Assembly (NCBI RefSeq): GCF_026210795.1
Contig: NC_089443.1
Coordinates: 620,001-684,000 of the forward strand
DNA length: 64,000 nt
DNA from: Rhizophagus irregularis
Taxonomy: Eukaryota; Glomeromycota; Glomeromycetes; Glomerales; Glomeraceae
Reading direction: 5' to 3'
The translations under genes were made by a program, and so were the position numbers. The notes beneath the pieces are model-generated. The model searched no databases. It was not told where the DNA came from and saw nothing but the letters and a program-made list of their open reading frames with translations. Positions 1,558-55,788 of the stretch are shown here, in pieces. How positions within the stretch are numbered: position 1 is the first letter of the stretch; every line of letters starts with the position of its first letter.

Positions 1558-3114
1558 ATGTCATGCTCAAGAATATTTTCAGGAGATTTGCCTGAATTAA
1601 TGAATGATATTATAAAATATTTACAGAATGATTTTTCAACATTACATTCATGTATTTTAGTTAATAGATCATGGTGTCGTTTAACAATTCCATTACTATG
1701 GGAAAATCCATTTTCTATTCCTACAAAAAATTATAATTTTATTGAAATTTACTTAAATAATTTAAATAATAAATCAAAATTAAAATTAAATAAATATAAA
1801 ATTAATAATAATTTATTACCTTCGAATACACTTTTTAACTATCCCAGTTTTATAAAGTATTTGAATACGGGGAGTATTAGTTTTTCTATTGAAAAGTGGT
1901 TTAAAACTTTAAAACCTGAAAGTAGATATTTTTTACAAGAGTCAAATACATTTTTAGAAGTTAAATTTAAAGGCTTAATTTGGATGTTACTACTTAAATT
2001 GTTTATTGAGAATGAAGAAAATTTATATAATTTTGACATTGAAATCACCGATGATTCTAATATCTATTTTGAAGATTTTCTCGAATTAATGTTACAAAAT
2101 CCAAATTTTATTAACAATATTAGAAATTTTAAACTTTATATTGAGATTAATTCTTTATTTATCAATTGTAGAAATATGTCAATTAAAAATCGTATATCAC
2201 AAATGATTGATTCACATCAAAATCTTAAAAAAATTGTATTAGGTTATAAAAGTTTTCCTTTTTATCAATCATTATTATTATCAAATAATTGTTCAAATTC
2301 TTTAAACACAATCATATTTTATAACATCAATTTTTGTGATATAATCAATTTAGATAAAGTATTTGATCAATTAAATGTTTTAAAATCTGTTCATATAGTT
2401 TATTGTTCTTCTTTAGATAATGATTTTATTCAACAAATTATTAATTTAACTAAACCATTTAAACTTAAATCTTTATTTATAAGAGAGATATTAAAAATTA
2501 AATCATTGGAATTATTATTACAAAAATCTGGTGGTTATTTAGAAAATATTGGATATAACTTTGAGTGTGATAATGGTTTATTTAAACAAAAATTTTTAGA
2601 ATTAATTATAAAATATTGTAAAAATATTAAATTTTTTGAATTACAAGAAACTGATAATCAAATCATTTATTTAGCATTGGATTTAATTGAAAATATAAGA
2701 CAAAATATTAATTATCTTTCTATTGATATATATGGATCAAGTGATAACTGTGATTCATTTATATTAAGAAATTTAGGTCAAAAACTTCCACTTAAATTAG
2801 AATATTTATGCTTGAATCTTAATATTAATACAAATGATTTTGAAATATTCTTAAAAAATTCTCAGAATACTTTTATTAACAAGTTGTTAATCAATAATTT
2901 AAAAGCTGAAAATATTTTATCTTGTATAAAAGAAAATATCATGAAAAAGAAAAGAGTCAAATATTTAGCTATTATGAATTCTTTTGATTATATAGATTTG
3001 TTTTCATTGAAAGATGTAGTCAAGGAATTTGAGTTTTATAATATTATAATTCAAAAATATGATGATTTGATTATTTATGCGGATAGTGTAAACTTTGTAA
3101 AAGAATTGGATTAG
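1558..3114 (+). CDS. F-box protein with LRR-like C-terminal region
   Basis: A 518-residue protein in one exon. The N-terminus is an F-box (about residues 5-48): LPELMNDIIKYLQNDFSTLH, then the ILVNRSWCRLTIPLLWENPF tail typical of Glomeromycotina F-box proteins. The rest is leucine/isoleucine/asparagine-rich with irregular LRR-like periods (for example LKLEYLCLNLNINTNDFEIF). The reading frame is open upstream of the ATG, but I chose MSCSRIFSGDLPEL because the paralogue at 9226 starts at the same point and sequence before it is conserved as non-coding. F-box proteins normally recruit substrates to SCF ubiquitin ligases; the substrate cannot be inferred. It belongs to a lineage-expanded family, and its copy lies 6 kb downstream. 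Confidence 0.88.
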   Translation: MSCSRIFSGDLPELMNDIIKYLQNDFSTLHSCILVNRSWCRLTIPLLWENPFSIPTKNYNFIEIYLNNLNNKSKLKLNKYKINNNLLPSNTLFNYPSFIKYLNTGSISFSIEKWFKTLKPESRYFLQESNTFLEVKFKGLIWMLLLKLFIENEENLYNFDIEITDDSNIYFEDFLELMLQNPNFINNIRNFKLYIEINSLFINCRNMSIKNRISQMIDSHQNLKKIVLGYKSFPFYQSLLLSNNCSNSLNTIIFYNINFCDIINLDKVFDQLNVLKSVHIVYCSSLDNDFIQQIINLTKPFKLKSLFIREILKIKSLELLLQKSGGYLENIGYNFECDNGLFKQKFLELIIKYCKNIKFFELQETDNQIIYLALDLIENIRQNINYLSIDIYGSSDNCDSFILRNLGQKLPLKLEYLCLNLNINTNDFEIFLKNSQNTFINKLLINNLKAENILSCIKENIMKKKRVKYLAIMNSFDYIDLFSLKDVVKEFEFYNIIIQKYDDLIIYADSVNFVKELD

Positions 3115-3744: not shown

Positions 3745-3900
3745 CAGCTTTATGAGGTGATATTTTTGTAAAAATGAGCTTTTCACGGATCTATTCATGG
3801 AAAATGTAAATAATTCGATAAATTCCGTGATATAAGGTTATTAATTCTGGAAATGAGCCTTTTACGGAAAAAAGATGGAATATCGACTTTTTTTACAGGG
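3745..3900. repeat. Truncated CCCTGTAAAAAA-family MITE
   Basis: The right end reads TTTTTTTACAGGG at 3888-3900, the terminus of the MITEs at 15439 and 16164. The interior (TTCCGTGATATAAGGTTATTAATTC, shown only in part here as a motif class) has the same TTCACGGA/TTCCGTGA words as the 16164 element. No matching left terminus is visible, so it looks truncated. A separate TTTTTTATAGGG terminus lies at about 3440-3452. Confidence 0.45.
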
Positions 3901-4047
3901 ATATTTTAGTGTTTTAAGTTTAACTGGTTAAACTATAATTTCGACCGGAATTAAGTGGTGATCATTGCCAGTATAAATCATGATCTATTCAACTAAATCC
4001 GCAGAATGCATGTGAAAATTTTGGCGCTGCTAGAATTTGCCTAATCC

Positions 4048-4123
4048 TTTGTCATAATCATAAATCATTTGGAATTTGTCATTTGGTCATTTGCGATGCC
4101 AAATGATTATGATTATGACAAAT
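4048..4123. repeat. Imperfect palindrome near transposon left end
   Basis: Arms 4048-4072 (TTTGTCATAATCATAAATCA...) and 4099-4123 (...TGATTATGATTATGACAAA) are reverse complements except for about one base. The loop carries TTTGTCATTTGGTCATTT. It probably belongs to the subterminal transposase-binding region of the enclosing element. Confidence 0.7.
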
Positions 4124-4336
4124 GACTTGTCATTTGCTCATTTGTCATTATAATACTGAAAGATTACTGGACAATTCCTAATTGCGGAATCACGTGATTT
4201 GTAAAAAAATATTAATTCGTGATCCGTGTAACGATCGGAGCATGTGATCAAAATTTAATAATAAATCGCGGGGTTAATAAAACATAGCAAAAATAAAATT
4301 TTTTCAAATCTCCGTTTCTTTACTAATTAACTTTTT

Positions 4337-7300
4337 ATGTCTTCCACAAAACTAACAATACAACTTCTTGCTAGTGGTAGTCTAGTTTCAAGACTTCATT
4401 ATGGCATATATGCGGTAAACTGGTGGACTTTTATTGATAAAAAAATGCCCAATGAAGAGAAACAAATATGTATACCGCTAAGGCTAAACATGAGAGTCCA
4501 GTCAGAACTTAATAAAACCAAATTTATTGTTCGTATTGTTAGTGCAGAAGATGGTATTAAACCAGGTTATGTCTGTGAATCTGACGTAGCTGCAAAAGTT
4601 TATCTATCTGCTTCAGAAGCTATAAATAAAACCTACAACAACCTTTTCAATAACAAAACACGATATCCAGGACCTTCCATTTTAGGGTTTGATAACGAAA
4701 CTATTATTCAAGAACTATTATCCGATGTTTTGTTTTTTCCTTTCAAAATAATGGTCGACAAACTTTCTATTTTAGTTATAAAATTTGGTGATTCAAAAAA
4801 AAAATATGGTTGGGTATCAATCAAGTTTTATGTACAAATACAAGGAAAAGCAAAGTCTTTTTTTACAAAAAATTGAAAGTAAAAATTATTGTATAGAGGT
4901 ATTTCAAAAGAAAGAAAGAATCGCATATTACATTGATATTTCACCAACTGAAGTTTGGAAGAAAACGGGAATACTGAAAAATTATAATGGCAATGTTTTA
5001 TTTGGAATCGAGCATCCCATTACGATCAATGTTTTGAAAAATTATGAAAAATTACCAATATGTAGCGTGAATGAATGGGATAATATTGAAATAATAACCC
5101 AAGCATTCGAACAGCATCTAAAACGTAGAACTATTGCTGATCTTAATTGGCATAAGTTTTTTATTGAGTGGAAAGAGCAAGAGTCAAGTATTATAGAATT
5201 TATGACGCATCTTAAACCACTATATCCACCAAACTATGAATTTACTGATCGGGAATTACGCGCTTGGAGAAAGATGATGAAAAGCGTAGGCTGTACAAAT
5301 ATAACGCCCTATAAAAAGGAAGAGTCTAAGGTAAGTTTTTCAAATTAATCAATTGTATCTTTACAAAATTCAAATTTGATTAAAAACAAGTTGATCGTGT
5401 GGATTTTTACTAATAAAAATTTACTTTTCACTATAGCCTGAATTTTGGACTTGTGCTGTTGATCCCAGTAGTGATCACGCTGCACTTCTATACTTGTTTG
5501 ACAAGGGTTTATTAAATGGTGTTTATAAAAATGAACCTGAGTTTATAGAAAAAAACAATCAATTGAAAGTAATAATCGATAAATTCTGGAATTGTTTTAA
5601 AGAAGCGATTGGAGTTAATAAATGCGGACTGGATGGAAAGCAACGGATTCTTTCTATTATTACAGAAACTTTTGGATTTAGAGAAATACAAAAAAAATTG
5701 CAGGTAAATTTCGAATATAATGTTGTTATTTCATTTTTTTTCATAAATAAAATAAACTTACTGCAATTTCTTTTAGATTTCTAATGATTTAATTAGTACT
5801 GCAAAGAAATATAGTCGCGTAAATGGTCCAGGATGTCCTGCAAAAATTAAACCGGTTGTAACACGAAACTATATTTCTGAAATAAAAGACAAAGAATTCG
5901 AGAGCTTTTTTTCTGATAAAGATAATGTCACAATGAGTTCTTATCGTGTTGATCCAAAAACCAGCCTGCCGTTACTATATCTAAAAGATAGTAAAGAAAC
6001 CCTTTGGCAAAAATTCGAAGCAGCTTATCCTGATGGAATAAAGAGGACTTCTTTTATGGCACGCTTATCTAGTGGTCGTTATGTTTATCGAAAAGACTTG
6101 GGTGGATTATGTAATATATGTAATGAATACTGTTACGAAGTGTTTGATACGTTAATTAATTTGGTACGACTACATGTAAAAAAGGAATCACGGGTATAAC
6201 AACTAGAATAAAAATTTTTGTTTAATGAGTTTATTATAAAAAAAATTGAAAAAATAATTTTTTAAAAAACATATACTCTAATTAAATTTTTTTAAATCAC
6301 AAAAATTTCAAGAATACATTGGTAAATAAACTTGAGGAATTACGCCACCATCTAAGACGAGGCTTCGAAAATGAGCTTATTGTAAATGAAGATGGCACAG
6401 TATCACATACTGATATAATTAACCACTGCTTATTATACGCGTTTGGAGAATGTATTCAAGAACATAAGTCTCGTTGTGCCATGTGTGATCAACTGTTCGT
6501 GCTTATTGACCATTTAACTGTGGTACTTCCAGAAGATTTTCAACCTACAATTGAAGAATCACGAAATAAAATTTATTATTTTCTAGCTCACCAAGCAAGA
6601 AAAGTTTATTTAAACAATCAATTTAAAGCAAAGCTTTCAGAGCTTGACGATGATGGCGCAATCTTAGTATGTGATTACAAAATGAGAATCTTACCAAAAA
6701 GTGCTCGTGAAACTAAGGAGCAGTTCTTTGGAAAACGTGGGTGGACACTTCATACAATTTTGGTGTTTACAAAACGTGATGCCTTGCAACTAGACGTACA
6801 AGCATTTGATCACTGGTCTACCGATACCAAACAAGATGCTTGGTTTACGGCATCATCCTTTGATGCTGTTTTCGAAACGTTAGATCCAAAACCTAAGTGG
6901 ATCAAAATTTTCTCTGATAATGGTGGCCATTATCACAATTCGGAATTAATGGCCATTGTTGCAAATTGGAATCAATGGTACAACATCGATGTCCGTGGAT
7001 GGCACTTTTTTGAACCTGGAGAGGCGAAATCTAGTGTTGATTCACATCACGCACAGGTAAGTTATGATTTCATTTGTTGACGGATGAAAATATTGAATTC
7101 GTACCACAAACTATTATAATAACTGTGTGTAATTATTCCCTTTTTAGATAGCTCATTCCATCAAGAGATATGTAAGAGTTGGGTATAACTTAGATAATGG
7201 TGAGAAAATAGAGGACGCTATAAAGAATCTGGGCGGAACTTCCGTTGCTCATCTGGAACCAAAACGAAATCATGTGCCTGTTAAAACTATATCTGGCATT

Positions 7301-8088
7301 ACCAAATTATCATATTTTGAATGGCCAAATGAAGGTTCATTCATCGGTTATATTCAAGCTCAGACCTTACCGCAAATAGGTGAATGGTTACGTTATTCTC
7401 CAACTGATGTCTCAAAGTTAATCAAAGAACCTTTGCACAAGCCAACTCCCGATATTTCTACTCATACCAAACCAGTTTTACCATGGAGTTTTCCTATAAT
7501 TCGAATTAAAGGTATGTCATAAATGATGAATATTTTAGTTCAAAGGTTATAAATGATAAATGATTTTTTTTTACAGATAAAGTAAATAGAAATACTTTGG
7601 AAACTGAAAGTAATGATCAAGCCTGTTCTCTAGGTAGGTACAGTACGTTGCGCTACATTTTTTCACACAAAATATAGTTTAGAATTATCGCTGGAACGTC
7701 CATTTTTGTAGATATAAGTGATAAATTTCAGTTAGAAAAAGGATGGGCGCTCAAGAGTAACCAGAAATATGGTCAACGGGGTAGTGGAAAGCGTATAACA
7801 ATAACCGTAAAAGCTTATTTGGAAGGGTTTTTTTTGGCAGGGAATGTGAATAAAACAGATCGAATGTCTGCAAAAGATATGGTTACAGAGCTAAAAAAAT
7901 TAGCAGAAGAAGGTGAAATTCAAAATGACGAGGTGCCAGAAATAAAAACAATTGAAGGATGGATAACAAGATATTCGGCAAGCTTGCGCAAAGAATCAGC
8001 AGAGCAAAGAGTAATAAGTGAAACTAATAAAAGACTTGAAAAAGAAGATAGTAATAATAAAAGTAGTCATAAGCGGCAGAAAAGATAA
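4337..8088 (+). CDS. Seven-exon transposase-like protein, probably DDE type
   Basis: Exons 4337-5330, 5437-5703, 5777-6193, 6313-7056, 7148-7511, 7577-7633 and 7736-8088. Phases agree throughout, giving about 1,064 residues after one frameshift. The frameshift lies at 4855-4876, in a T7/A6 homopolymer area, where the first frame stops (FFTKN) and the next continues (KIESKNY). Exon 4 holds candidate acidic residues in ILVCDYKMRILPKSA, KIFSDNGGHYHNSEL and HFFEPGEAKSSVDSHHA, a D-D-E pattern. Cys pairs occur in exons 3-4 (CNICNEYC; CAMCDQL). The tail is lysine-rich and may be nuclear. I do not recognise the superfamily. The short intron before 7736 uses an acceptor reading CAGTTAG. The single lesion could be an assembly error or early decay. 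Confidence 0.7.
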
Positions 8089-14196: not shown

Positions 14197-15959
14197 TTAA
14201 CTGTTATTAAAATTATTTTCCTTGGGTACTTTGTTATTTTCATTAGAATCTATATTTTCCTTGGTTAAAAAAGATTTTTTTTTCAAATTAATGAGTTCAG
14301 AAAATACTTGTTGCATATCTGGTCTATCGTTTGGATTATCTTGCCAACATTCTGAAAAATTGTTTTGATTAAATAAAAGAGTAAGTATGTATCAATAATC
14401 AAAAGCGAAATAATAAATATATTCATACTTGTATAAATGTTAATATAATCAGTTGGTGTATCAAGAATTGGAGTTTCTCTTTTTCCATCTAGAATATGCA
14501 ACGTTAACGCTGTTTCGTCATGAGGGCTATTATAAGATTCAAATGGTTGTTGTCCAGAAGATACTTCCCATAAAAGTACTCCGACGCTGTACACATCTGA
14601 TTTCTTATCATTGTTATTTGTTTGATTTTTAAAACGTTGCGGATCAACATAAGGTATCTTTCCAAAAATATTCTTTACGTAATTTGATACTCCAGCTCTA
14701 CATGAAAGACCAAAGTCTGCTAATTTGATCTTATTCTGATGAATCAAGATATTATCAGAATGCTGTTTTATAAAAGAATTAATTATAATTAATACACTTG
14801 GATTATTTACTTGCGAATTCTAAAAGAATAAATACTTTACTAAATCATGATGTATAATATCTTTTCGATGTATACATGAGACAGCATCGGCAATTTGAAT
14901 TGCAAATTGTAATTTGATATTCCAATCCAATTTATTAAAATTATTTTTTAAATAATTTCTCAAAGTTCCATTTTCTGCATATTCAAGAACAAATAAATAA
15001 TTTGGAGGATATACTTGATCTAAAAAGAAAATGAATATGAATATATTAATGTACTATAAATTAATTTGAAATTTTATTTATTCGTTATTTTGGCTAACCC
15101 AGTCTGCAAATAATACAATAATACTTCAATAAATATACGGCGTAATACCATAGATTACACCATATATTGCACTAGAAATATTTTTTTTATATATGTATAG
15201 TATGGACATGATTGTGTGGGAGTTAACAATAAGTTGTAAATCATTCTATAAATTACTTACTTGTATCGCTGGTAATACCATAAAATTGAATAATATTTGC
15301 ATGAAAGTTAACTTTATGCATCAAAATTATCTATATGTGTAGTAAATATAAATACAATATATACTGTATATATAGCATAATGTTAACAAACGATAAGGAA
15401 ACTAAGAAAATAATAAGAATATTATACCTCATTAACAACCCTATAAAAAAAGTATGTCCGGAAATTGTAGCTGAAAACGTCCGGAAAATGTTTATTTGTC
15501 TGGAATATGTCCGGAATATTGCAATATTCCGGACGTTGGAAAATTTCCATTTTCCGGAAAATGTCCAGAAAATGTCTAGGAGGGTTCAGACCCGGCGTCC
15601 AGAAAGTGTCCGGAATATTGCAATTTTCTGGACGTTTTCCGGACACACGGACATTTTCCGGATGTTTTTAGCTACAATTTCCGGACATTTTTTTTTTACA
15701 GGGCAATTTTTTTCATAAAATCATCGTCATTTTTCAAAGATTTTAATGCAACAACGGTATTTGAATTTTCCCAATTTGCTCGATAAACATCACCAAACCC
15801 TCCATTACCTATACATGTTATATTTTGAAATTCATTATAATCGTAATAATTAATATATTCGTTGGTAATGCCATCATTAATCCATTGCGTCCATTTACTA
15901 CTTGTATCTCTATCATCATTTTTATTATTCATTTTTTTTTTAAAAAAAGAAAGAACCAT
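14197..15959 (-). CDS. TKL-type protein kinase interrupted by a MITE in exon 1
   Basis: Exons on the minus strand: 15959-15428 (containing the MITE), 15330-15261, 15019-14841, 14762-14429 and 14351-14197, all phase-consistent. Motifs in order: glycine loop CIGNGGFGDVYRA, VALK lysine, hinge FVLEYAENGTLRNYL, catalytic loop HHDLHSDN, ADFGLS, YVDPQRF, SDVYSVGVLLWEV and a C-lobe ending CWQDNPNDRP. The catalytic residues are present, so it should be an active kinase if expressed. The start is ATG 15959 or 15932. The MITE lies between the VALK lysine and helix C and brings a stop codon at once unless it is spliced out; splicing at its own ends would keep the frame (see findings). The sequence beyond the C-lobe is short (about 35 residues, Asn/Lys-rich), with no Sel1 repeats. 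Confidence 0.8.
15439..15703 (-). mobile_element. 265-bp MITE with 3-bp duplication, intron-like ends
   Basis: Terminal inverted repeats of about 46 bp start CCCTATAAAAAA on the left and CCCTGTAAAAAA read from the right, and continue into GTCCGGAAATTGTAGCT. The target duplication is CAA (15436-15438 and 15704-15706). Deleting the element plus one CAA restores the kinase reading MKKIVNE. The interior consists of many TCCGGAAAATG-type words. The 3-bp duplication and CCCTGTAAAAA ends are consistent with the CACTA/EnSpm group, by known features of that superfamily. Read in the gene's direction, the ends supply GT at 15699 and AG at 15441. Confidence 0.88.
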
Positions 15960-20210: not shown

Positions 20211-23200
20211 ATGGAATTAACTCAAAAGCCTGAAAAGTGGAAATACAATGACGAATATCAGGTAAAAGTAATTTTTTTAATTTTATAACGATAGATGATG
20301 TAAAATTTTAATATTAATTACATATTATTATTTAATAAAAAAGGTACATGTTTCTAATTCTTTAACTGAATCAGACAATGTTGATGAAAAAACAGTCTAC
20401 ATGGAAGATTTAAAAAAAAGAGAAGAAGTATATGGGATATGTGCTGAATGTAATGAACCTGGCACAGGAAAGGAATGGTGTCAACCTTGTAACGCTAGAA
20501 GGTTTGAGAAAAATTTTATAAATTGGACCAGCGGAAAAAAAGATATCGATGAATTAATACAGAATTCACAAATTACTGCCGTACATTCTACAAAATGTCT
20601 TGAATGGATACCCTACGAAAATTTTAAAAATATTGTTCCTATTAATAAAGGAAGCTCCAGCAAAATTTATTCAGCTGACTGGCCCGAAGGAAATATTTTT
20701 TCATGGAATATTGAATATCAAGAATGGAAGCGTTATTCAAATAAAAAAGTTGCACTAAAAAGTTCAGCTAATTCTTCTGATATAAATATAGACTTTTTAA
20801 ACGAGGTAATTAAAAAAAAAATTAATTTTGAATTGTATTATGAATTGAATTTACTAAGATGTTATTTAATTTATTGTTGAAATTTATGTTAGGTTAAATT
20901 TCATATTCAGATTTATACAAAGAATATTATTCAATGTTATGGTATAACACAAGATCCGAATACTAAAGATTATATGATGGTTTTACAATATTGTAAAGAT
21001 GGAAGTTTAAGAGATTATATATATCAATCTGAAAAGCATATAAATTATTTTCTAAAAATTGACCATTTATTTCAAATTTCAAGAGGTCTTTTATACATCC
21101 ACAAATCTGGAAAAATACACAGAGATCTTCATTCAGGCAATATACTATTCGATAATATTCCGTATATAAGCGATTTTGGATTGTGTCAATCAGCAACCAA
21201 TAATAAAAAACAAGAAGTTTATGGTGTGACACCTTATATAGCTCCAGAAGTTTTGCGTGAATATAAGTATACAAAAGCAACTGATATATATTCATTTGGA
21301 ATATTAATGAATGAATATATATCGCAAGAATTTCCTTATAACGATATTCCTCATGATCATATTTTGACAGTTAATATATGTAGCAAAGGACTTAGACCAA
21401 AAATTTCCGAAAATACACCAAAATTATTTGCAGATTTGATCACTAAATGCTGGGATACTAAAGCAGAAAATAGACCAACTGTTAAAGAATTATGCAAAAC
21501 TTTAAATATATGGAATAAAGAAAAATATAATAATAATAGTGAAATATATTTCCAAATAAATAAATGTAAACAAAATGAAAGTATTCGAACACATTTAGTA
21601 GAGAATTTATCATCTGAACAACAAATAATTCAACAACTTAAGTTAAATCATGGATTATTCTTAGATGGATGTAGTATAAAACCTAGTGAACACGCTATAT
21701 TCGTTGAAGATGGCGAATTAAGTATGAGTTTATATGATGATCAACCCATAGTGTATATTTCCGTAAACGAATCTGTAAACGATCATGACTCTTGCATAAA
21801 TTCATTGAGTTTCAATTCTGATGAAAGCATTAATTATGACAAAACTTTACAACCATCAGATATATGTATTAATTTTCCAGTTGCTGAAATTACTTATACT
21901 GCTAATTTAACAGAATCCTTTCTAAACTCTTCATATGATGTTACTCCATTATCTATAAAGTATGGACATCTATTTGCAAGAAAAATTTTGGTTGGTGGTA
22001 AAATATTTATCGATGACCTTGAATTGGCCACTTCAACACAAGAAGACTTGTTTAAATCTTACTTAACTTGGGCATATAGTTTAGCTAAGTATAATAAGGA
22101 AAACCCATTTACAAATCTACTTACCCCAGATGATTTTTTTCCAAGGATAAGGACATTAGATGGAGAAAATTTAAATTCTTATGATAAATTAACAAATTGG
22201 ATGATGAATTTGTATAAAAAGAATATAGTTGATATTATTTCATATAATGATTTCATTCTCGTTTCTGAATTGAGGTCCAATAAATCATCATCAATAGATG
22301 AGAAACAACCTGGAGTTTTCAATTTTAAAGAGAGATTAAGTTTTGAAGATTGGGCAGTATACGCTAATTTAATAAGATGGATTAATGAAAGTCATCTTTT
22401 CCAAGGTCTAATGATTGATAAGCAATTTGAATTAATGCGTAGCAAAAAAATGGCTATTAATTTTACCAAAATCCCCAAAGTAGAATCAAGTAATAAGTTT
22501 TATATGAAGATGATGAGTCCAACTACAAAGGTAGAAGAATTCTTAACATCTAATAATATTTTTTCAATTAAAGATGTAGAATCTTTTCCATTTATTAAAG
22601 AACTTATTAATTCTGAAAATATAAGTTATAAAGATTATGTTCATTTTTTGGTGAAGCTTGAGCAATATAGAATTACATCTGACATTTCACCTTCAGAAGA
22701 ATTCAAGCAAGCTATAGAAAAAGCACTTGAAAGTATGAAGCCACTTATGTGTTTACAAGATGTATTTGACGAATATGGGCATTTTTTTCCATTAAATGTT
22801 GTCTTAGGAAAATCTCTTAAGAATATTTTACCAAACTCCTTACCATACAAGATTGATTTGAGAACGGTATCAGTTGATTCTTTAAAATCACATTTAGATA
22901 AATTGAATATTTCGTATCTTTTAACCGAAAAAGGAGACGTTATTGATAAAAATAATTTATCTAATTGGATTCAAAATACAAATGATGATCTAGAAGTCAT
23001 TGAGTTTGAAAATATAGTTTCTTTACACCGTATTCTTGAAATAGAGCAACAGAAGAAAATAGATGTCATTTTAAATAGGAAGGGTAACCTTAAAATTATA
23101 ATGACGGGTATTGATGAATTGAAAGATTTAAATATTAACAATACTGAACATTATAAACGAATAAACATAGAACCATCATTGGAAGATGAGGATTATGAAG

Positions 23201-23817
23201 TTTTTGGATCAGTTATTTCGAAATATAATTTAAAATCAGAGGATTTTTTGGTTACATTTGAATTATATGACATTAATGGATTTTCTATAATGATCAAAAC
23301 TTTAAAGAATACAAACATTAATATTACGGAATGTTATATTTTGTGGATGGTTATTGGAAATCCTTCAAAATTATCAGTTTTTAGCCCGAGGAATCGAGAG
23401 TTTCAAGTTGATTGTATTAAAGAGTCTGTAGAATTACAACCCAATAATTTTTACTACCCAGTTAAAACTTCTTATGAACTATCTGAAGGATGTACGATTT
23501 CCGTCAATGCATACTGTTCAACAGCAAATTATGAGCCTATAAATATTAAAATTAAATTGGCTGGTTGGTCAGAAGATTGCATTTATTTACAAATAATCGA
23601 AACAAATTTAGATAGTTCAGATATTTCTGATGATTATGATCAACTCACAAGTATTGAAATAACCGTATGTGTTTTATATTCAAATTATGAAAATTTGGAG
23701 ATTGATAATAAGGAAGTTGAATGTTCTCTTAATTTAATTGGTTGCATTTTAACCGAAAGTACCAAAGGTATGAGAAATTTATTATTAAGCTTTTTTCTTC
23801 GTTTCAAAAAATTATAG
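20211..23817 (+). CDS. TKL kinase fused to a MACPF-like C-terminal region
   Basis: Exons 20211-20261, 20344-20805 and 20893-23817, phase-consistent, about 1,145 residues. An N-terminal Cys motif CAECNEPGTGKEWCQPC (about residues 49-65) is followed by the kinase domain: degenerate glycine loop INKGSSSKIYSADW, VALK, HRDLHSGN (about 246), SDFGLC, YIAPEVL and CWDTKAENRPT. The catalytic residues look intact. The next ~700 residues are not a kinase. They contain two blocks like the MACPF signature, IKYGHLFARKILVGGKIFI (about 526) and DEYGHFFPLNVVLGKSL (about 795). A C-terminal beta-rich region follows (DPxN-like YILWMVIGNPSKLSVFSP). The last exon could instead splice at GGTATGAG (23769). Upstream lies a decayed MACPF-like gene; downstream, same strand, the triple pseudokinase gene. 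The MACPF reading is inference. Confidence 0.82.
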
Positions 23818-23899
23818 ATTTTCATTATGTTTTGTACTATATCATCAAATAGTTATTCCATTTTCAAAATTTTTTCCTTTAATTTCTGAAATCAGTAAT

Positions 23900-26800
23900 A
23901 TGTTTAATGAAATTATTGAAATAACGCAAACTGCTGAACATAATAAACGAATTTGTGATATATTAAAACAACGAATTGACGCTGCAGATTTGGCAGTGCG
24001 TAATCTTAAAATTAAAAAAAATAATCAAGGATTTTTCAATCATAATAACTATATTTATTTACAAAATTTAGTTAATGTTATAACACACATTAAAAATTTT
24101 ATGTCAGAAATTTCTCAAATGAAAACTTTGTTAAAATATATACAAGCAAAAAGTATTGAGAAAACTTTTGATGATTTACGTAAAGATTTTGATAATTGCA
24201 TTAATTCATTAGCTTTTACCATCACTATTAAAAATTCTTATGAGCTCGAACAATTAAAAGCTGATCAAGAAGATTTAACTAAGGTAAGTATAAATTTATC
24301 CCTGAAAATAATATATGAAAACATATTTAACATATTTATTATTTATAATTAATAGTATCTGGAAAATACATCTAATGACAATATAACAGAAGTTGAAACT
24401 ATCATGAAATTAAAAAATAAGAATTCCTTAAATATACCAAAAACTAATAATAATTCCTATGCACATCAACTAGAAATTATTGATTATGAAAAAACTGAAG
24501 AGAAACCACGTAAAAACGGACGTGTGACAAAATGGGTTAGTGCTAAAAATAAAAGTGAAGGATTCGCTTTTAAAATTATTCATGAGGAAGAAAAAAATAC
24601 AGTACAAAATCAAATCACAATTCTTAAAGGGCTTCATGATTGGCAAAATATTATAAGAATTTATGGACTTACTTGTGAGGGAAATATTAAGTTTTTGGTA
24701 TCTGAATGGGCCAAATATGGGAATTTACGTGAATATTATACAAACTATAAAGATCGATTCAATCTTAGATTAAAATTACGTATTTCTCTTGATATCGCTC
24801 GCGGATTAAATTATTTAAGTTCCGTTGAGGTAATTATTATAAAATTTTCCTATTAATTTGATGAACTTTCTAATTTTTTTTTTAATAAATCTAGATTGTA
24901 CATCGTGACATTAGAACTGAGAATATATTAATTACATTATACGAAACAGCAAAACTAGCAAATTTTAAATTAAGCCGTTCATTATCCGCATCCACACTAA
25001 AACAAAGTCAAAATTTAGAACGAGTTCGTTATTGCGCCCCTGAATTACTAAAGAGGGCTCACAACTTCAAATATGATCATAAATGTGAAGTTTATAGCTT
25101 TGGAATTTTACTTTGGGAAATTGCAGAAGAAAGGACTCCTTATAAACAATATAAGGATATTGTAAAAATAACCGATATGGTTTGTAATTATAAATATCGA
25201 GAATCTTTTTCTAAAGATAGCCAAATGCCTTCATCATTTATAAACTTGGCGCTTAAGGGTTTGTAAATATATGTGTATGATTTAGTTTTATTACCATAAA
25301 ATAATAATTATTATTCCATTTTTAGCTGTTGATCATGATCCAAAATTTAGGCCAGAAATCTCAAAAATGCTTGAAGTTCTCAATAACTGTTTTGAGGAAT
25401 CTAAAACCCAGGTTTCATATATACCTGATATTCCGCAAAACCTAGAAGCTACTTCAAAACATATACTCCAAAATGAATATGCCATTTTAGATGATAATTT
25501 ACAAAATCTCACTGTAGCATCAAGCTCATCAAGCTCAACTATTGTCGAAGAGATTGTTCCATTTGCAAAATTTCATCCTTTAATTAATGAAATAAGAAGT
25601 ATCCTTAATGAGATTATTGAAATAACTCAAGTTGCTGAGCATAATAAACGAATTTGTGATGTATTAAAACTCCGAGTTTATGCAGTAGATTTGGCAATAT
25701 TTGAACTTAATGTTATGAGAAATAACCAAGAATTTTATAATAGAAGAAACTATTCAAGTTTACAAAGTTTAATTTCTGTTATAATGCAAATTAAAAAATT
25801 TATTACAGATATTTCTCAAATGAAAAATTTAATAAAATTAAAATATGTACACCCAGAAAAAATTGAGAAAACTTTTAAAGAATTATGCAGAGAATTTGAT
25901 ATATGCATAATTAATATTGATTTAGTGAGTTTCAGAGATATGGTTAATAATAGAATTAATAGAATTCGACCCGATGAATCATTAAAATCAGATCAAGATT
26001 TTTCTAATGTAAGTTATATATATGTATATTATAAATCAATTCTAATAAATTATTTTTCTTTTTTAATACATTACTATATTATTTAGTATTTTGCAAAAAT
26101 TATTGAAGAAATTGGAATTGATATTAAAGAATTATCTAACGAATTTATATCGATGGTTTTAAAAGTCGACGCGATGAATAATACGATGGAAAAACTTTTA
26201 GATGAAAAAAACTATTCAAAAAATGATAATGATAAAAATGTTAATGACAAATCAAATGAAATGATTCAATCGAAGATTGATAAAATCTTCGTAATACGCC
26301 AATTAAGAATATCCGATTATGAAAAAACTGATGAGAAACCACGTAAAGATGGACGCGTGACTAAATGGGTTAATATTAAAAATGAAGGTGAAGAAGTTGC
26401 GTTTAAAATTACTTCTGAGAAAGAAAGAGCTAATATACAAAATCAAGTTACAATTCTTAAAGCTCTTCATGATTGGCAAAATTTTGCAAGAATATATGGA
26501 CTTACGTGTGAAAAAAATAAATGGTATTTGGTATCTGAGTGGGCCGAATATGGTAATTTACGTGAATATTACACAAATCATAAAGATCGATTCGACATTA
26601 GATTGAAATTACGTATATCTCGTGATATTGCTTGTGGATTAAATTTTTTAAGAACTTTTGATGTAAACATCATTAATGTTTTCATTTATTTATTTACTTT
26701 TTACTTTTTTTAATTTTTTTTAATTTATTTTTGTTTTTCTTTTTAGATTGTGCATCGTGATGTTAGAGCCAAGAACATTTTAATTACATTACACGAAACA

Positions 26801-29647
26801 GCAAAACTAGCAAATTTTAAATTTAGTCGTTCATTATTCGCGGCTACATTAAAACAAAGTCAAAATTTAGAACGAGTTCGCTATTGCGCTCCTGAATTAT
26901 TAGAGAGAGCCCACAACTTCAAGTATGATCATAAATGCGAAGTTTATAGCTTTGGAATTTTACTTTGGGAAATTGCAGAAGAAAGAACTCCTTATGAACA
27001 ATATAAGGATATTGTAAAAATTACTGATATGGTTTGTAGTCATAAATATCGGGAATCATTTTCAAAAGATAGCCGAATGCCTTTATCATTCATAGATTTG
27101 GCGCTTAAAGGTTTGTAAAATATGTGTATGTTTCAGTTTTTCATTCTAAAATATTAATCATTCCATTTTTAGCTGTTGATCATGATCTAAAGCTTAGGCC
27201 AGAAATTTCAAAAATGCTTGAAGTTCTCAATAACTGTTTTGAGGAATCTAAAACCCAAGTTTCAGAAGAGATTGTTTCATTTTCAAAGTTTCTTCCTTTA
27301 ATTAATGAAATAAGAAGTATCCATGATGAGATTACTGAAATAGCCCAAGCTGCCGAGCATAATAAACGAATTTGTGATGTATTAAAACTCCGAGTTTATG
27401 CAGTAAATTTGGCAACATTTGAACTTAATGTTATGAGAAATAACCAAAAACTTTTTAACAGAAGAAACTATTCAAGTTTACAAAGTTTAGTTACTGTTAT
27501 AACACAAATTAAAAAATTTATTACAGATATTTCTCAAATGAAAAAATTAAAATACGTACAACCAAAAAATATTGAGAAAACTTTTAAAGACTTATGTAAA
27601 GAATTTGATATATGCATAATTAATATTGATTTAGCGAGTTTCAGAGATATGGTCAATAATAGAATTCGATCCGAAGAAGAAACTAAATCATTAAAATTAG
27701 ATCAAGAAGATTTATCTGATGTAAGTTAAAAAATATATATGTATATTATAAATTAATTCTAATAAAATATTTTTCTTTTTTAATACATTACTATATTTAT
27801 TTAGTATTTGGCAAAAAATATTGAAGAAGTTGGAATTGATATTAAAGGATTATCTAACAAATTTACCTCGATGGTTGTAAAAGTCAACGCGATGAATAAT
27901 GCGATGGAAAAACTTTTAGATGAACAAACTAAACAACAGTCAAAAAATGATAATGATAAAACTGTTAATGACAAATTAAAACAAATGATTCAATCGAAGA
28001 TTGATAAAATCTTCGTAATACGTCAATTAAGAATCTCTGATTACGAAAAAACTGATAAGGAACCACGTAAAGATGGGCGCGTGACTAAATGGGTTAATAT
28101 TAAAAATAAAGGCGAAGAATTCGCTTTTAAAATTGTTACTGAGGAAGAAAGAGCTAATGTACAAAATCAAGTTACAATTCTTAAAGAACTTCATGATTGG
28201 CAAAATATTACAAGAATTTATGGACTTACGTGTGAAGGGAATAAATGGTTTTTGGTATCTGAATGGGCTGAATATGGTAATTTACGTGAATATTATACAA
28301 ATTATAAAGATCGATTCGATATTAGATTGAAATTACGTATGTCTCGTGATATTGCTCGTGGATTAAATTTTTTAAGAGCTATTGAGGTAAACATTATGAA
28401 GTTTTCATTTATTGCTTTACTTATTTATTTACTTTTTTAATTGATTTTTTTGTTTTTCTTTTTAGATTGTGCATCGTGATATTAGAGCTGAGAATATATT
28501 AATTACATTATACGAAACAGCAAAGTTAGCAAATTTTAAATTTAGTCGTTCATTATTCGCAGCTACATTAAAACAAAGTCAAAATTTAGAACGAGTTCGT
28601 TATTGCGCCCCTGAATTACTAGAGAGAGCTCACAACTTCAAATATGATCATAAATGTGAAGTTTATAGCTTTGGAATTTTACTTTGGGAAATTGCAGAAG
28701 AAAGAACTCCTTATGAACAATATAATGATATTGTAAGAATAACTGATTTGGTACGTGACAAAAAATATCGGGAATCCTTTTCAAAAGATAGCCGAATGCC
28801 TCAATCATACATGGAATTAGCGAATAAAGGTATGAAGGATTATATGCATATATATATGCATTATTAAATTTTATTAATGATTTATCTGTTTTTAGCCGTT
28901 AATCATGACCCAGAATTTAGACCGAAAATTACAGATACATTTGAAGTACTTAGTCGTTGTTTTGAGGAATATGAAAAACCTCATTCAAAATCTTCTTCAA
29001 ATCCTAAAAGTTCACAATATCAAAATATCACACTTTCAAGTTCAGAACCTATTCCAAATCCAGAAAGCATCATAAATCGAGATGAATATGCTATTAAAAC
29101 TTCGTCCGATTATGAATTGTTCAAGTACATGACACTTGCTGAGGCGGCAAAACAACATAAGATGGTTGATAGGCAAGGTAAACCAGGTGACACAAAGACT
29201 GCATATAAGTGTTTTGAATCATATGCGGATGCCGATACTACAGTTCGTAACAAAATAGTAGCAAAATATTATAAAGCTTATTACATTTCAAGAGGATTAG
29301 TTGATAATATCGAAGTCAAGGACAAAGATAGAATTGTTGCTGAATTATATAAAGAAGTTGCTGATGATGAAGCAAATGAATTTCCTGAAGCGAAATTAAG
29401 GTATGGTGACTGCTTATATAATGGTAAAGGTGTTGAAAAGAATTTGCCAGAAGCTCTTAAATATTTCGAAGAAGCAGCTGATAATGGTTATAAGGTAGCA
29501 ATGTATAATGCTGGAAAATTATATTATAATGGCTATGGTGTTGAGAGAAATAAGGAGAAAGCTATTAGATATATGAAATTAGCTATTTATAATGAATATG
29601 AACCTGCCATGAAATTTTGCAGAGATAATAACATTAATTTAAATTAA
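23900..29647 (+). CDS. Three tandem MLKL-like pseudokinase modules plus Sel1 repeats
   Basis: Ten exons: 23900-24283, 24356-24829, 24895-25258, 25326-26008, 26087-26662, 26747-27110, 27173-27720, 27805-28386, 28466-28829 and 28896-29647. All phases agree and there is no stop, giving about 1,696 residues. Each module has (i) a helical bundle like the MLKL N-terminal domain (NEIIEITQTAEHNKRICDIL), (ii) a lysine/asparagine-rich brace, (iii) an N-lobe FAFKI and VSEWAEYGNLREYY, and (iv) a C-lobe HRDIRAENIL, LANFKFSRS, RYCAPELL and EVYSFGILLWEI. All three lack a glycine loop, have Gln for the helix-C Glu (QNQVTIL) and NFK in place of DFG, so they are predicted pseudokinases. The exons at 25326 and 27173 join one C-lobe directly to the next bundle. 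The C-terminus has Sel1 repeats (LRYGDCLYNGKGVEKNLPEA). Bundle similarity starts about 16 codons before the ATG, so the 5' end may be incomplete. Confidence 0.85.
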
Positions 29648-36137: not shown

Positions 36138-37229
36138 ATGTCACACTTAGAGAATTACTATAAGTACTACAATCTCTCTGGAATATCAGCATGAATTCTA
36201 AAAGGTGAAGAGCACTACAACCTATACAAAAAGCCCCTAAAGGAAAAGTCAACAGAACGCCCAAAGGTAATTGTATGGAAACCAAATGCAACACATCAGG
36301 CAGATCTTGCAGAGATGCCAGTTGACCTCAAAGGATTCCACTATTTCCTCGTAGTGGTGGAAGTTGCAGGAAAGAGAGTCGATGCAGAACTCCTAAAGGA
36401 TAAGACTGCAAATAGAGTTCTAAATGGATTTGTTAAAATCTACAGAAAAAATCGTATTAAGCCTCCTACACATCGACTGGAAACTGACTCTGGATCAGAA
36501 TTCACCAATGATCAGATACGTAATTTTTTCCTGAACAGCCTAGGGGTGATGATGAGGTTTGGAGAGCCGGGAAGACATAAACAGCAATCATATGCTGAAA
36601 GAGCTATCCAAGCTATCCAAGAACCCCTTCTCAAACAAATGGTGGTACAGGAGTTGAAGACTGGGGTGACATCCGTGAAATGGTCAGAAGATTTCCATAA
36701 TATAGTGAGTAAAGTAAATGAACTCTGGCAAAGAAATCCTCCAAATATTCTAACAGGGTCACCTAAAGTGTCAAAAAAGACGGATCTCCTCTCTGAAGGA
36801 ACACGTGTCAGAGTCAAGTTAGATGAACCTATTTCTGTACTTGGTAACAAACTTCACGGAAAATTCCGTACAGGAGACATAAGATGGAACCCAAACATTC
36901 GTGTAATCAAAAAAATGATACTCTCACCTGAACAACCTCCTACATATCTTCTTAACGGACCACATGGTCGATTAGGTGTATCCAGATGTGCATATACCTG
37001 AAAGGAATTGCAAGTAGTTCCTATTAATGAACGTCCTCCACCTGACTCTGTGATAAGAGGACAACCTGAAAGATTTGTTCCTGAGCAGATACTTTGGCAT
37101 CGCATTAGAAAAGGTCAAGACCAGTATTTGGTTAAGTGGGAGCGCTATCCAGACACTGAGGCTACTTGGGAACCTGCTGACCGGTTGAAGGAGGATGTCC
37201 CTGACTTAATTCGCAAATTTTGGGAATAA
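36138..37229 (+). pseudogene. Maverick/Polinton-like integrase with chromodomain
   Basis: The 364-codon frame is open except for TGA at 36192-36194 and 36999-37001. DDE core: HQADLAEM (D), HRLETDSGSEFT (D) and QQSYAERAIQ (E). A C-terminal chromodomain follows (EQILWHRIRKGQDQYLVKWE, then YPDTEATWEPADRL). The N-terminus (YYKYYNLSG) resembles Polinton integrases, but sequence between the N-terminal part and the core looks deleted relative to the family. It is related to the integrase at 63568-64000, which ends without a chromodomain. Its stop is 25 bp from that of the convergent Gag-like/protease ORF. A chromodomain would direct integration to particular histone marks. Confidence 0.78.
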
Positions 37230-46224: not shown

Positions 46225-47870
46225 TCATGTCCAGATAACCTTGTTTGCATTTTTCACATGGCAGTATCCTGCGGTTTCAAACTTGAGAGCTTTCAATGCT
46301 TTGGATGCATTTTCTGGACAAGTGATAAGTGTAGAACTACTTGGCTGTTCCTCTAAAATAAATCCATCTGTATGGATGCGTCGTACTTTATCCTTATATA
46401 GTTCTAATAACTCTGAAGTCGTCTTCCGTCCATGTGCTAATAAGAATGGAGTGATCCTAGGATACTCACCCTTAAAGGGACTACCTGGGTTTGTGAACTG
46501 GAATCGCCACTGGTCAGATCCTACTGGTACAATGGAGTCAAGTGTGTGGCCTTCCGGAAACTTGAATGGATCTGTTTGATCTGTGGTGAGTGTCTTGTAA
46601 TTGCGTTTCCTCTGGCAGAGTGCTCCCCATAATGTATTGAGAACTCTCTTTGCAACACGACCAGCCATGCCACCCTGGTTCTTTATATTGAAGAGAAAGT
46701 GGACATACTCACCAAATATTACAGTCCCAGGAATTCTTGCTTCTCTGTCATATATCAAGGCATTTGGCTTTCCATCCTGGATTAACTGTATATCGAGACC
46801 AAGTTTCTTTGCTTGTTGTAAGTCAATGAATGTATAGACTCCCCTCTTATTCTGTCGGAAGAGAATGCCATTACCACTTACCTTAGCACGAAATAATCCA
46901 TACAAGGCATAACCTCTGTGGTCTACAAAGTCTTTGAGTATTTGAAACTTACCTTGTTGGATTGGAAAGTTTGCATTTGATTGCTGAATACTTGGATACA
47001 AACTTGTCACGTCATATTGTCTTCCATAGCCCTTTCATTTATTGTCTGCCCAGATAAGACCTCCCATCATTGCATCACTTATCCACTCTGCTTCGACTGG
47101 ATCAAGAGAATCATTAGCTGGAACTTCTACACTAAACCGTTCGAAAAGCCAGAGAGCAGTTCTCTTGTACGACCAGTTATGATAAAATAAGTCAATTCCT
47201 AGACCAAACTTCTTTGTAGTCTGTAGGAAGAATTCTCGCCCTTCATGGATCCTCTGGTATGTTTCCTCAAGTATTTCATATATTCCAGTTTTACGATTCT
47301 TCTCAATAGGGATAAAGGAGTAACTATCAGAGTTCTTGCTTTCTGAAACTGTCCAACTGTAAGAGACTTAACTGTCTTACCATTGTATATTGTTATTACA
47401 TTATTAACCCCATCTTTACGATAAACAAAGGGAGACTTTTGTTTTCTATCTAATTTACTAGGGTGGAGTCTTCCGGGATTCAGTGCAAGAGAGTAGTGGC
47501 CTTCAAACAGGATGAGGGTTGCACGTCTGTTAGACTTGCTCTTGGAAATTCCAGTGGAATTCCCTACAATATTAAGTGCAAGGCTTCCTGCAAGTTGTTC
47601 AACCTTATCCATATATGAGACTGGAACTGGAGCATCACGATTGAGACCTAATGCCTTTTTGATATATTCAGGCTTTTTTATGGTCTCGGGTATTTTAGAG
47701 AATATACCATAAATATGCTTCAGGCATTCATACAGGCAATCATTTAGCTCTCCATTGCATCCCCCTGCAACCGGTGGAGCATCTCTCACATAAATTATGA
47801 ATCGTTCAAAGTAATCAGGATCTGCATCATCTGGTAGTTGTGCTTCATCATAGTTAAGGTTGCTTGCTGA
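46225..47870 (-). pseudogene. Protein-primed-type DNA polymerase B, decayed
   Basis: The readable N-terminal part (PDYFERFIIYVRDAPPVAGG) includes NDCLYECLKHIYG and ILFEGHYSLALN, a Cys and His pair like cysteine-protease domains seen in Maverick PolB N-termini. After a frameshift near 47330 comes SYSFIPIEKNRKTGIYEILE, then TGA near 47036, then motif A YDVTSLYPSIQQ, a motif-B-like AKRVLNTLWGALCQRK and motif C RRIHTDGFIL. These differ from the PolB at 56444 (DANNLYG; YTDTDS), so two polymerase families are present. The N-terminal end is cut at 47870 by other mobile DNA. The 3' end reads HVKNANKVIWT. Confidence 0.68.
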
Positions 47871-49960: not shown

Positions 49961-52019
49961 AGTATAGGTGTAACCAAAGATATGGAATAGATTACACAGA
50001 AATTAATGTTAGATAGTGATAATTAGTAAACTGAAAATATAATATGGATAAATAATTAGCCGATGGGTAAATAATTAACCGATAAATAATATTTATAGTT
50101 TAGTTTAGTTACGAGAAAGTCACATGATAATACATCTTTTATTTCTTATTATTTTCTTAAATTTTTAATAGAAAAAGAATAGTAGATAGTAGAAATAATT
50201 TTCTTAACATGTATAAATACAAGTGGGATTCATTAGGAATTCCGCAGTCAATTTTTGGCTCAATAAAATAATATTAAAATATTAATTATTAAAAGTTATT
50301 AAAATATGAATATGCTCATTGTATGCTTGAGAATTAATTAATATCATATTATAAGTCCAGAGAAGTAAAGTAAGGGAAATTATCCCAGTTTAATTATTAT
50401 ATGAATTGAAATAAGAAGTTAAGAGAACTCTCGCAGTTTGTAAGAGAAATTATGAGAATGTAAAAGATATAAATGAAAGAGAGCGAGAAGTTAAGAGATT
50501 ATAAAATCTAAACCAAGCATAATATTGAACTGAGTATGAGTTTAGTCCGCCGATATGTGGCAGGTATCGGTGACAATTTGGTACATGCTTCTGAGAAAGA
50601 AAATGATTGACTGTGTGTCATCATTCTGACTATCTTCATATAGTCAGGTACCTATGTGGTATTCCTGAGAATCTGGACTCGAGTATATAAAAGAAAAGTT
50701 ATTAAAAGTATAATGAGAAAATGAATGAAATATGGATCGAGTAGGGTTTATAGGAGAGATGTCTGTGTATTATAAACCAAGAAAACAAGTTATTAATTGA
50801 AATATGGTATAGGAAAGATCCATAAGAAATAAAAGAGAACAGGGTTGAGTAAGGTTTATCAAAAGATGTGATAGTAGTTCAATCGCCAGCGAATATGTCA
50901 ATAAAACATTGTCTTTAGACAAGAACCTTATACATGAAACTAGTGTATAAGAAGTAGTTGATTATCTTAAAGATGCGTGGTTATTTGAGTTACTAAAAGA
51001 AATGAAAATGATAAACAGATTTAATATTGTATAAAAGACCCTGAGAAAAATAAGAAATATGAAACTTATTATAAGAGAGAATTTCTGTGTACTATAATAA
51101 GTTATAAAAGACTGTAAGGATTCCGCAGTTGGAATAAAGGAATCAGAGATAAAAGAAATTAGCTGTTATTCTTCAGCTTAAATAAAAAGAACAAATATAA
51201 GAAGATTAGCTGTTATTTCTTCAGCGTGAATAAAAAGAATAAATGAAACAAAGGAGTTGTTAGTGACAAACCCGTAAACTACCGTACTTCAGTAATGAAG
51301 GTAAAGGCAAGCCCGGTATAGGTTACTGAAAGAAAAGAAAATTTAATGATGTTAACAATCATAAGAAATATAAAATTATTTAAAGAAAATAATGTTAATA
51401 AGAGAATTGTAATTGATGTTACCAGAGAAAGTATAAGTCACGTGATAAGGTGCAGTAAAATACATATATAGACCTCCCCGGTCTAAGGAGATTGTGGACT
51501 TAGATTATTTTTAGAAAATAAAGTTATATGAGAATATAGACCTCCCCAGAGCTGAGGAGATTACATAAGAATATTATGTAAGAAGTCACGTGAGTGGTAC
51601 AAATCACATGAGTAGTACAAATCATACGAATTATAAAAAGTAGATTACACAAAGCGCAGTAAAGTGATGAAAACAATAAAATAATATATACCTTGATGCA
51701 GTGGAATAAAAATAAAATGCGAAAAATTGAAATTTAAAAGGAAAAGGTGGTGTATTTATAATTTTTGGAGTGATACAGATCACGTGTTGAGAGAATAAAG
51801 AAAGAAGATAAAAGAAATAAGAGAAAGTATAAGTCACATGATAGGGCGCAGTAAATGAAAGAAAATAGAAGAAAGTACAAGTCACATGATTGATTATATA
51901 AGCATAGCAATAATATAAAAAGGACGTCCTCAGAGCTGAGGAGATTGAAATTAAAAATAATAAAATAAATTCTAGTATATAATTAACAAAAATAAAAATA
52001 CAAGTAAAAGCCATAAAAT
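49961..52019. other. Retroelement-like non-coding region with repeats
   Basis: No intact ORF. Purine-rich sequence has GAGAAGTTAAGAGA words (50390-50520), a duplicated TTAGCTGTTATTCTTCAGC segment (51160 and 51205), and a 400-bp-spaced direct repeat around TATAAGTCACRTGATARGGY (51430 and 51828). I take it to be the long 5' untranslated or terminal-repeat part of the gag-like element that follows. Confidence 0.45.
51474..51950. repeat. Three related hairpins, CTCC...GAGG type
   Basis: GACCTCCCCGGTCTAAGGAGATT (51475 region), GACCTCCCCAGAGCTGAGGAG (51542 region) and ACGTCCTCAGAGCTGAGGAG (51925 region) each fold into a short stem; only arms are quoted in the findings. They precede the first gag-like ORF. 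Confidence 0.55.
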
Positions 52020-54597: not shown

Positions 54598-54803
54598 AAA
54601 GTTGAAATATATAGAGATGAAGTTTAAGAGTTAAATGAAATGAAATTAGAAGAAGTATAAGAAATATATGTAATAAATAAAAGAATTGATAAATAAAGAA
54701 ATAAAATATTTAAAATAAATTAAAAAAAAAAAAAAAAGTACAAATTTATATCGTGAAAAGAATAAAAGTGTAATTATATTTTGAAAATAAATAAGGTATT
54801 AAA

Positions 54804-55064
54804 ATGGAAATACCAATATTCTATGGGGTAAAAGGAGAAAATCCAAAGGAATGGACAGATCAAGTTGAGAAATATTTATTGAAAATAGGAGTTAAAGATG
54901 ATAAGAGAATATTTGAAATTGCAAGAACACATTTATTAGACAATGCGAAAAAATGGTTGGAAAATGAAGGAGTATGTATTGTAAATTGGAATAAAAATGA
55001 GATTAAATGGTTGAATTTAAAATTCAGAATAATTGATAAATATGCAAGTAATAATAGAAGTTGA
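54804..55064 (+). CDS. Retrotransposon Gag-like N-terminal fragment
   Basis: An 86-residue ORF: MEIPIFYGVKGENPKEWTDQ, then RIFEIARTHLLDNAKKWLEN and WLNLKFRIIDKYAS, the usual Gag capsid pattern (F-x-G, W, hydrophobic helix, W). It stops at TGA 55062-55064, and the following DNA is low-complexity, so this is a truncated gag with no pol. It lies 200 bp after the coiled-coil ORF. Confidence 0.5.
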   Translation: MEIPIFYGVKGENPKEWTDQVEKYLLKIGVKDDKRIFEIARTHLLDNAKKWLENEGVCIVNWNKNEIKWLNLKFRIIDKYASNNRS

Positions 55065-55181
55065 GTGACTGATTATTATAAAAGTAAAAGGAAATGGATA
55101 ATTATTATAAAAAAAAAAAGAAAATAATAATAATAATTCTTTTATAATAAAAATAAAATACAAGTAAAGAATCATAAAGTA

Positions 55182-55360: not shown

Positions 55361-55363
55361 GAA

Positions 55364-55595: not shown

Positions 55596-55724
55596 TCCAA
55601 CCAAACAAGAAATAGGATTTCAAAGCCAACGGAGCCAAAAAAGGTAAGGAATATTAACCCATCCAGGAAACCAGCCATGGAGTCAATAGAGCGGAATAGC
55701 AAGGCAAGCAATTACCCTTATACC

Positions 55725-55754: not shown

Positions 55755-55788
55755 TACCAAGTAACTATACAGATAAATAGTACATAAC

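Follow-up and report, generated by a model that had tools for sequence, protein, structure and literature searches.

Do three MLKL-like modules encoded side by side in Rhizophagus irregularis belong to one gene, and, if so, where does that gene begin and what could its product do? The question is raised by a 64,000-nucleotide stretch of the assembly GCF_026210795.1 (contig NC_089443.1, called C15 in our searches, positions 620,001 to 684,000; hereafter the window), for which an initial annotation, made from the sequence alone, had proposed three fused modules of helical bundle, brace and pseudokinase followed by Sel1 repeats. Our analysis places the triple array and its Sel1 tail in one splice-consistent gene model. 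As predicted from the sequence, this gene comprises 13 exons at 20211-29647 on the plus strand and encodes up to 2,841 residues, with a kinase and a MACPF region ahead of the three modules.

Gene model and splicing

Splicing of the ten exons from 23853 yields 1,712 residues without a stop codon, instead of the about 1,696 given earlier, and the nine introns between exons 4 and 13 are indeed consistent in phase, all of them GT-AG and 62-84 nucleotides long. The C-lobe introns begin at 25259, 27111 and 28830, each in phase 1 and each splitting an Ala codon. Exon 7 (25326-26008) carries the end of the module 1 C-lobe, a linker and the module 2 bundle, and exon 10 (27173-27720) carries the end of the module 2 C-lobe and the module 3 bundle; both are single open frames, as the initial annotation had described, and the linkage of the modules is therefore independent of splicing between them. 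The module 1 bundle occupies exon 4 (23853-24283). The pseudokinases of module 1 (24434-25399, exons 5-7), module 2 (26240-27246, exons 8-10) and module 3 (27964-28969, exons 11-13) were delimited by profile match and motif alignment, with PDB sequence matches in addition for the first and the predicted model of a relative, P0117, for the third. The C-terminal Sel1 region (29111-29647; Pfam Sel1 3.6e-16, in two stretches) ends with the stop codon.

The start of the gene at 23852, as first proposed, was ruled out. Position 23853 is preceded by an AG acceptor (AG/TTATTCC), no Met is present at that point of the frame, and an in-frame donor of the same phase, GTATGA at 23768, lies at the end of a 958-codon upstream exon, which puts the start of the gene further upstream. 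The upstream open frame runs from 20893 to 23817, and removal of the 85-nucleotide intron 3 (23768-23852) leaves the frame unbroken from the MACPF exon into module 1. In the splice model, exon 1 (20211-20261) opens with an ATG (MELTQKPEKWKYNDEYQ; the public protein P0002 begins MELTQKPGKWKYNDEYQ), exon 2 (20344-20805) encodes a Cys-containing leader and the kinase N-lobe, and exon 3 (20893-23767), without a stop in its 958 codons, encodes the rest of the N-terminal kinase and the entire MACPF region up to its phase 1 donor. Translation could begin at the ATG at 20211, giving the 2,841 residues of the splice model, or at 21724, giving the 2,393 residues of the public model P0001.

P0001, an R. 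irregularis protein of 2,393 residues found in our protein search within a cluster of 15 member sequences, is 100% identical to the window gene across the trimer and through the junction between the MACPF region and the modules. Together with the splice model and the sequence motifs, this protein supports the claim of three MLKL-like predicted pseudokinase modules in one gene. The junction itself, ESTK/VIPF, is carried exactly by P0001, P0002, P0003 and P0010. P0001 starts at residue 449 of our model, downstream of the kinase, whereas P0002, from a 4.94-Mb contig, starts at the equivalent of exon 1 but skips about 100 kinase residues; over residues 1-188, our model and P0002 are 89% identical. 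At locus L009 (G000:C15:702500-712400), by eye the gene of P0002, the skipped kinase part is open in the genomic DNA, with HTD at the HRD position, and a single open frame of 1,107 residues spans everything from helix C of the kinase, through the MACPF region, to the first bundle. A more distant paralog, L011 (G000:C15:821500-830500; 3753-7610, minus strand), holds a MACPF domain, a bundle and a kinase N-lobe in one frame of 1,285 residues. Gene prediction is therefore not the only ground for the fusion.

The MLKL-like modules

All three modules show the features first described for them, namely NFK in place of DFG, QNQ at the helix-C Glu and, in place of a glycine loop, GRVTKWVS/N, and all retain the beta-3 Lys, the HRD Asp and the catalytic Asn. 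The same pattern runs through the relatives. Our protein searches listed 116/116, 120/210 and 120/158 matches, having scored only the 7,983-7,995 candidates that shared most words, and the architecture survey covered the 335 resulting proteins, kinases from unrelated organisms included, after domain matches covering less than 40% of a profile (20% for MACPF) had been dropped. In the 144 bundle-following pseudokinase domains drawn from these proteins (P0001 included, the window copies left out), the DFG Asp is replaced by Asn in 139 and by Ser in one, is kept in one and falls in a gap in three. The helix-C Glu position holds Gln in 110 and Glu in one, and the beta-3 Lys (133), HRD Asp (137) and Asn (141) are widely kept. 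This near-uniform NFK supports the prediction of the initial annotation and suggests that pseudokinase status is old and is not a defect of the window gene.

PDB sequence matches of the module 1 pseudokinase were led by EGFR and another tyrosine kinase, followed by the MLKL pseudokinases 6vc0, 4m68 and 4btf. P0117, which shares 83% identity with module 3 and the Sel1 region, has a predicted model with helices at 19-136 and 140-240 followed by a kinase fold, which places a brace ahead of the kinase domain that in all three window modules has lost its DFG Asp; in Foldseek its first match was the human MLKL pseudokinase 7jxu_A (E 2.0e-12), with many ordinary kinases close behind. With VIA-align, the 50 entries listed for the module model were kinases throughout (c-MET, SYK, BTK, FES, RIPK4 and others), with no MLKL among those 50 and with the bundle part uncovered. 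For the bundle, the predicted likeness to MLKL draws on Pfam MLKL_N (PF22215) matches in relatives and on the modelled helix layout. MLKL_N was matched at E<=1e-3 in 39/64 single-module relatives (alignment A1, 64 of the 69 bundle-pseudokinase-Sel1 proteins of at most 800 residues) and at E<=1 in 15/18 isolated bundles (best 6.8e-8, module 3 bundle not among the 15; alignment A3, consisting of 15 of 20 bundles chosen from the 69 and the three window bundles). For these 18 bundles, no HeLo or HELL family appeared among the 25 of 35 families listed, an absence that does not exclude them, and an NCBIfam scan gave 22 families, each matching 1/18.

Bundle, NFK pseudokinase and Sel1 follow one another in the order typical of a glomeromycete family to which domains, the 83% identity to P0117 and a tree assign the modules. 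The bundle is not at the N-terminus: module 1 comes after 681 residues even in P0001, and modules 2 and 3 come after pseudokinases. We therefore call the modules MLKL-like and not MLKL.

N-terminal kinase and MACPF region

The N-terminal kinase (20635-21555, plus strand, residues 115-392; Pfam PK_Tyr_Ser-Thr 4e-41 on its exon 3 part) has the beta-3 Lys, helix-C Glu, HRD Asp, Asn and DFG all present and a non-canonical glycine loop. By its intact catalytic motifs it is predicted to belong to the active class. Among 60 N-terminal kinase domains drawn from the same 335 proteins, the HRD Asp is present in 38 (gap in 6) and the DFG Asp in 43 (gap in 8).

Downstream of the kinase, a pleurotolysin-B-like MACPF domain (22354-23073, residues 659-898; motif YGHFF......G) has fold matches to pleurotolysin B and perforin. 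It is preceded by a possible first MACPF/CDC-like half (21631-22302, residues 418-641; motif YGHLFARKILVGG) and followed by predicted beta-rich segments (23089-23679, residues 904-1100), all on the plus strand. The stretch 21631-23073 resembles two tandem MACPF/CDC-like halves, each with YGH.F......G (hhalign E 2.5e-6; weak CDC rows), and a tandem pair, trailed by the beta-rich segments, is the probable make-up of the region. Pfam MACPF_1 matched 37/42 members of alignment A2 (41 of 51 MACPF proteins and the window) at E<=1e-3, and 51 matches were found in the fungus's own genome. Pore formation by this region is a prediction from sequence.

Relatives in proteins and in the genome

In the 335 proteins, a MACPF domain and a bundle-pseudokinase module occur together in 27 and at least two modules in 11, with three modules only in P0001, the protein of the window gene. 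The two-module architecture was found in R. irregularis and R. clarus, and MACPF with a module was additionally seen in Funneliformis geosporum (P0025, P0029) and, in a partial protein (P0149), in Glomus cerebriforme. Since two-module versions recur, the trimer represents one state of a wider fusion family. In P0040-P0043 and P0046, three to four bundles stand in series before a single pseudokinase. Two open frames in the genome, at G000:C1:5192766-5193899 and 5244320-5245540 (479 and 453 residues), each have three bundle matches without intervening kinases, comparable to P0040-P0043. In the single-module proteins P0117, P0118 and P0127 the bundle lies within about 25 residues of the N-terminus. 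The possibility that P0117 is a fragment of the window gene was rejected; a closely matching single-module gene lies on contig C29 (L016), and P0117 begins with a Met-initiated leader of its own.

The genome searched comprises 146.7 Mb in 32 contigs; a 32-chromosome R. irregularis assembly annotated with Illumina and Nanopore RNA is described in PMC10234402. The module 2 bundle had 126 matches at E<=1e-5, of which 56 lie on C15 and C29, and in 15 of 106 bundle clusters at least two matches lay within 2.2 kb on the same strand. C15 holds six of these 15, the window gene included, with a spacing of about 1.7 kb. L009, L010, L013 and L014, on the same contig, have the order kinase-MACPF-module-module-Sel1, the kinases of the last three being only 31-33% identical, and L012, L015 and L017 have related orders that are incomplete or divergent.

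Probable history of the module array

Protein identity between modules 2 and 3 is 81%, with a synonymous divergence (dS) of 0.21 (NG86) or 0.31 (YN00), and their bundle-brace introns are nearly identical (76 identities, 2 mismatches, 6 gap positions). To either of them, module 1 shows 66-68% identity. The ratio of nonsynonymous to synonymous divergence (dN/dS) between modules, 0.48-0.50 by NG86 and 0.17-0.31 by YN00, lies below 1, which fits constraint. Module identities of 66-81%, this ratio and the two-module relatives in the genome and in R. clarus indicate that the array is not a product of chance. Between the C-lobe introns of module 1 (25259-25325) and module 2 (27111-27172) there are 56 identities, 4 mismatches and 9 gap positions, and these modules are just 68% identical in protein. 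The intron likeness, from which module 3 departs, may be a trace of duplication or gene conversion.

In a FastTree tree of 70 modules, midpoint-rooted and without support values, module 1 joins those modules that come first in P0002, P0003 and P0010, and modules 2 and 3 cluster with the second module of P0002 and the stand-alone P0117 and P0118. The simplest history, as read from the sequences, would be a fusion with a gene of the stand-alone type, an ancestor with two modules and, recently, a duplication inside the gene. The gene probably originated when a kinase-MACPF gene was fused to a module-Sel1 gene, with intragenic duplication of a module later on.

Comparison with known systems

The modules share with animal MLKL the predicted order of helical bundle, brace helices and pseudokinase; MLKL pseudokinases rank with the best matches by sequence and take the first Foldseek place. 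They differ from it in having three copies per chain, internal bundles, a Sel1 tail and a fused kinase and MACPF region; here, moreover, the HRD Asp is retained, DFG is NFK, and MLKL_N matches module 1 alone, below the cut-off. Compared with pleurotolysin B and other MACPF pore formers, the domain here differs in being internal to a kinase protein and probably a tandem pair. Plant immunity proteins of the tandem kinase/pseudokinase type, like the window gene, fuse a kinase and a pseudokinase in one protein; we know of none with an MLKL-like triplet and MACPF.

According to PMC8778642, MLKL homologs among the fungi analysed there are exclusive to Glomeromycotina and have Sel1 domains (family 1.A.105). 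The bundle-pseudokinase-Sel1 unit appears to be that family, P0117 being 83% identical, and the single module with Sel1 is thus an expanded glomeromycete family already in print; the passages of that paper on these homologs mention no multi-module forms, and MACPF is absent from its main text. Fungal HeLo/HELL proteins and BaMLKL (PMC9815663, PMC12881547) are comparable as four-helix bundle effectors, some joined to a kinase or pseudokinase, in which helices 3 and 4 are separated by a short helix, as at residues 105-113 of the P0117 model. In contrast to the window gene, they are described as part of NLR and amyloid signalling; the passages on them mention no module arrays, and MACPF is absent from both main texts. 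The initial annotation knew of no covalent trimer of such modules, and at the level of titles and abstract beginnings in the open-licence PMC literature we found no paper on multi-module MLKL-like proteins or a kinase-MACPF-MLKL fusion, which is no proof of absence.

Possible function and alternative readings

We tentatively read the locus, at somewhat less than an even chance, as one gene for a kinase, a MACPF region, three MLKL-like modules and Sel1 repeats whose product would be an autoinhibited membrane-attack switch that serves in cell death, allorecognition or defence within the fungus. From the domain order, its splice consistency, its recurrence in paralogs and R. clarus and the pseudokinase status of the family, we infer a working mechanism. 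Modelled on the RIPK3-MLKL pair, the kinase (or a partner protein) would phosphorylate the linked pseudokinases, which would then release the bundles; the three tethered bundles would raise local concentration and drive assembly of an oligomer at the membrane, which the MACPF domain, and possibly the bundles too, would perforate, with the Sel1 repeats as a scaffold or sensor surface. RIPK3-type activation and pore formation by the bundles are putative. The bundles, being internal, may act as assembly parts, depend on cleavage or disturb the membrane from within the chain. A bolder version, in which a single polypeptide would hold the full membrane-attack circuit of initiating kinase, three pre-linked MLKL-like switches and perforin-type pore, with two unrelated pore folds under one kinase, appears doubtful to us; it would have evolved in mycorrhizal fungi, in whose shared cytoplasm killing at the level of self/non-self or of nuclei would be costly and under a tight gate. 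If the switch reading is true, necroptosis-type (pseudokinase/bundle) and perforin-type killing machineries would be joined in one gene, and a natural, covalently tethered MLKL-like oligomer would bear on how many MLKL subunits are required and how a pseudokinase releases its bundle. An expanded candidate cell-death repertoire is indicated for these widespread plant symbionts.

Several observations weigh against the switch reading. The window's own bundles were compared with the MLKL N-terminal model, as the initial annotation had suggested: module 1 reaches 17.4 bits with MLKL_N (E 0.0033), under the cut-off of 27, modules 2 and 3 are unmatched, and the 71 matches in the genome at E<=1e-3 all lie outside the window gene. 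Searched with a profile of the bundle, the PDB yielded three sequences at E<=1, the best with E 0.42 and no MLKL chain among them, and the window's MACPF_1 score of 22.1 bits is below the cut-off of 27.5. The main difficulty is that no bundle in the predicted gene model would have a free N-terminus, and this speaks against pores of the simple MLKL kind; HeLo/MLKL-type bundles are described in PMC9815663 as expelling their N-terminal helix, so internal bundles may need another mode of action. Among relatives, the N-terminal kinase is intact in some but not in others (HTD in L009). P0001 is a public gene model, which may come from the same strain, and not transcript evidence; since it lacks the kinase and P0002 omits about 100 kinase residues, automated models disagree on the N-terminus. 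Retention of C-lobe introns would yield truncated products, and smaller products are conceivable from the resulting stops (25264, 27116) and in-frame ATGs (25367, 27214).

The main rival accepts the same gene but takes the MLKL-like modules as a regulatory or oligomerisation scaffold, or a decoy for foreign kinases, serving the MACPF pore and the kinase. This is a minority possibility in our view; internal bundles without a free N-terminus and near-uniform NFK pseudokinases speak for it, and the serial bundles before one pseudokinase in P0040-P0043 and P0046 suit an assembly role, whereas P0117, P0118 and P0127 have the MLKL layout, so that the ancestral module may be an effector. Those same retained-intron stops and in-frame ATGs, and the stand-alone existence of both parts (P0117 as the single-module gene on C29, for example), could instead mean that prediction has merged a kinase-MACPF gene with one to three MLKL-like genes that have separate transcripts. 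Such a merger is quite improbable, given that there is no intergenic space, with introns of 62-85 nucleotides, that C-lobe ends share exons with the next bundles, that MACPF and bundle lie in uninterrupted frames in L009 and L011, and that the same order recurs in proteins of two species and at four other loci on the contig. It is also unlikely, if less so, that the gene is a decaying, little-expressed and functionless by-product of tandem duplication in a fast-turnover kinase cluster. The family is large and clustered, and stop-containing copies exist (e.g., C15:1025175), but all 13 exons of the window gene are open, dN/dS between modules is below 1, the catalytic-lysine, HRD and NFK positions are conserved, and the P0001 cluster has 15 member sequences.

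Other features of the window

Downstream of the gene, an integrase core (36195-36998; rve, 9.1e-9) and a minus-strand fragment of a type B DNA polymerase (46228-47034; 3.5e-8) are probably mobile-element remnants. A tRNA scan of the window found none. An F-box-like match under its cut-off was seen at 1270-3111, and a kinase C-lobe open frame (1.2e-15) lies on the minus strand at 14286-14819. Strong GC skew (0.26-0.33) and AT skew (0.20-0.35) extend over about 6 kb at 50001-56000.

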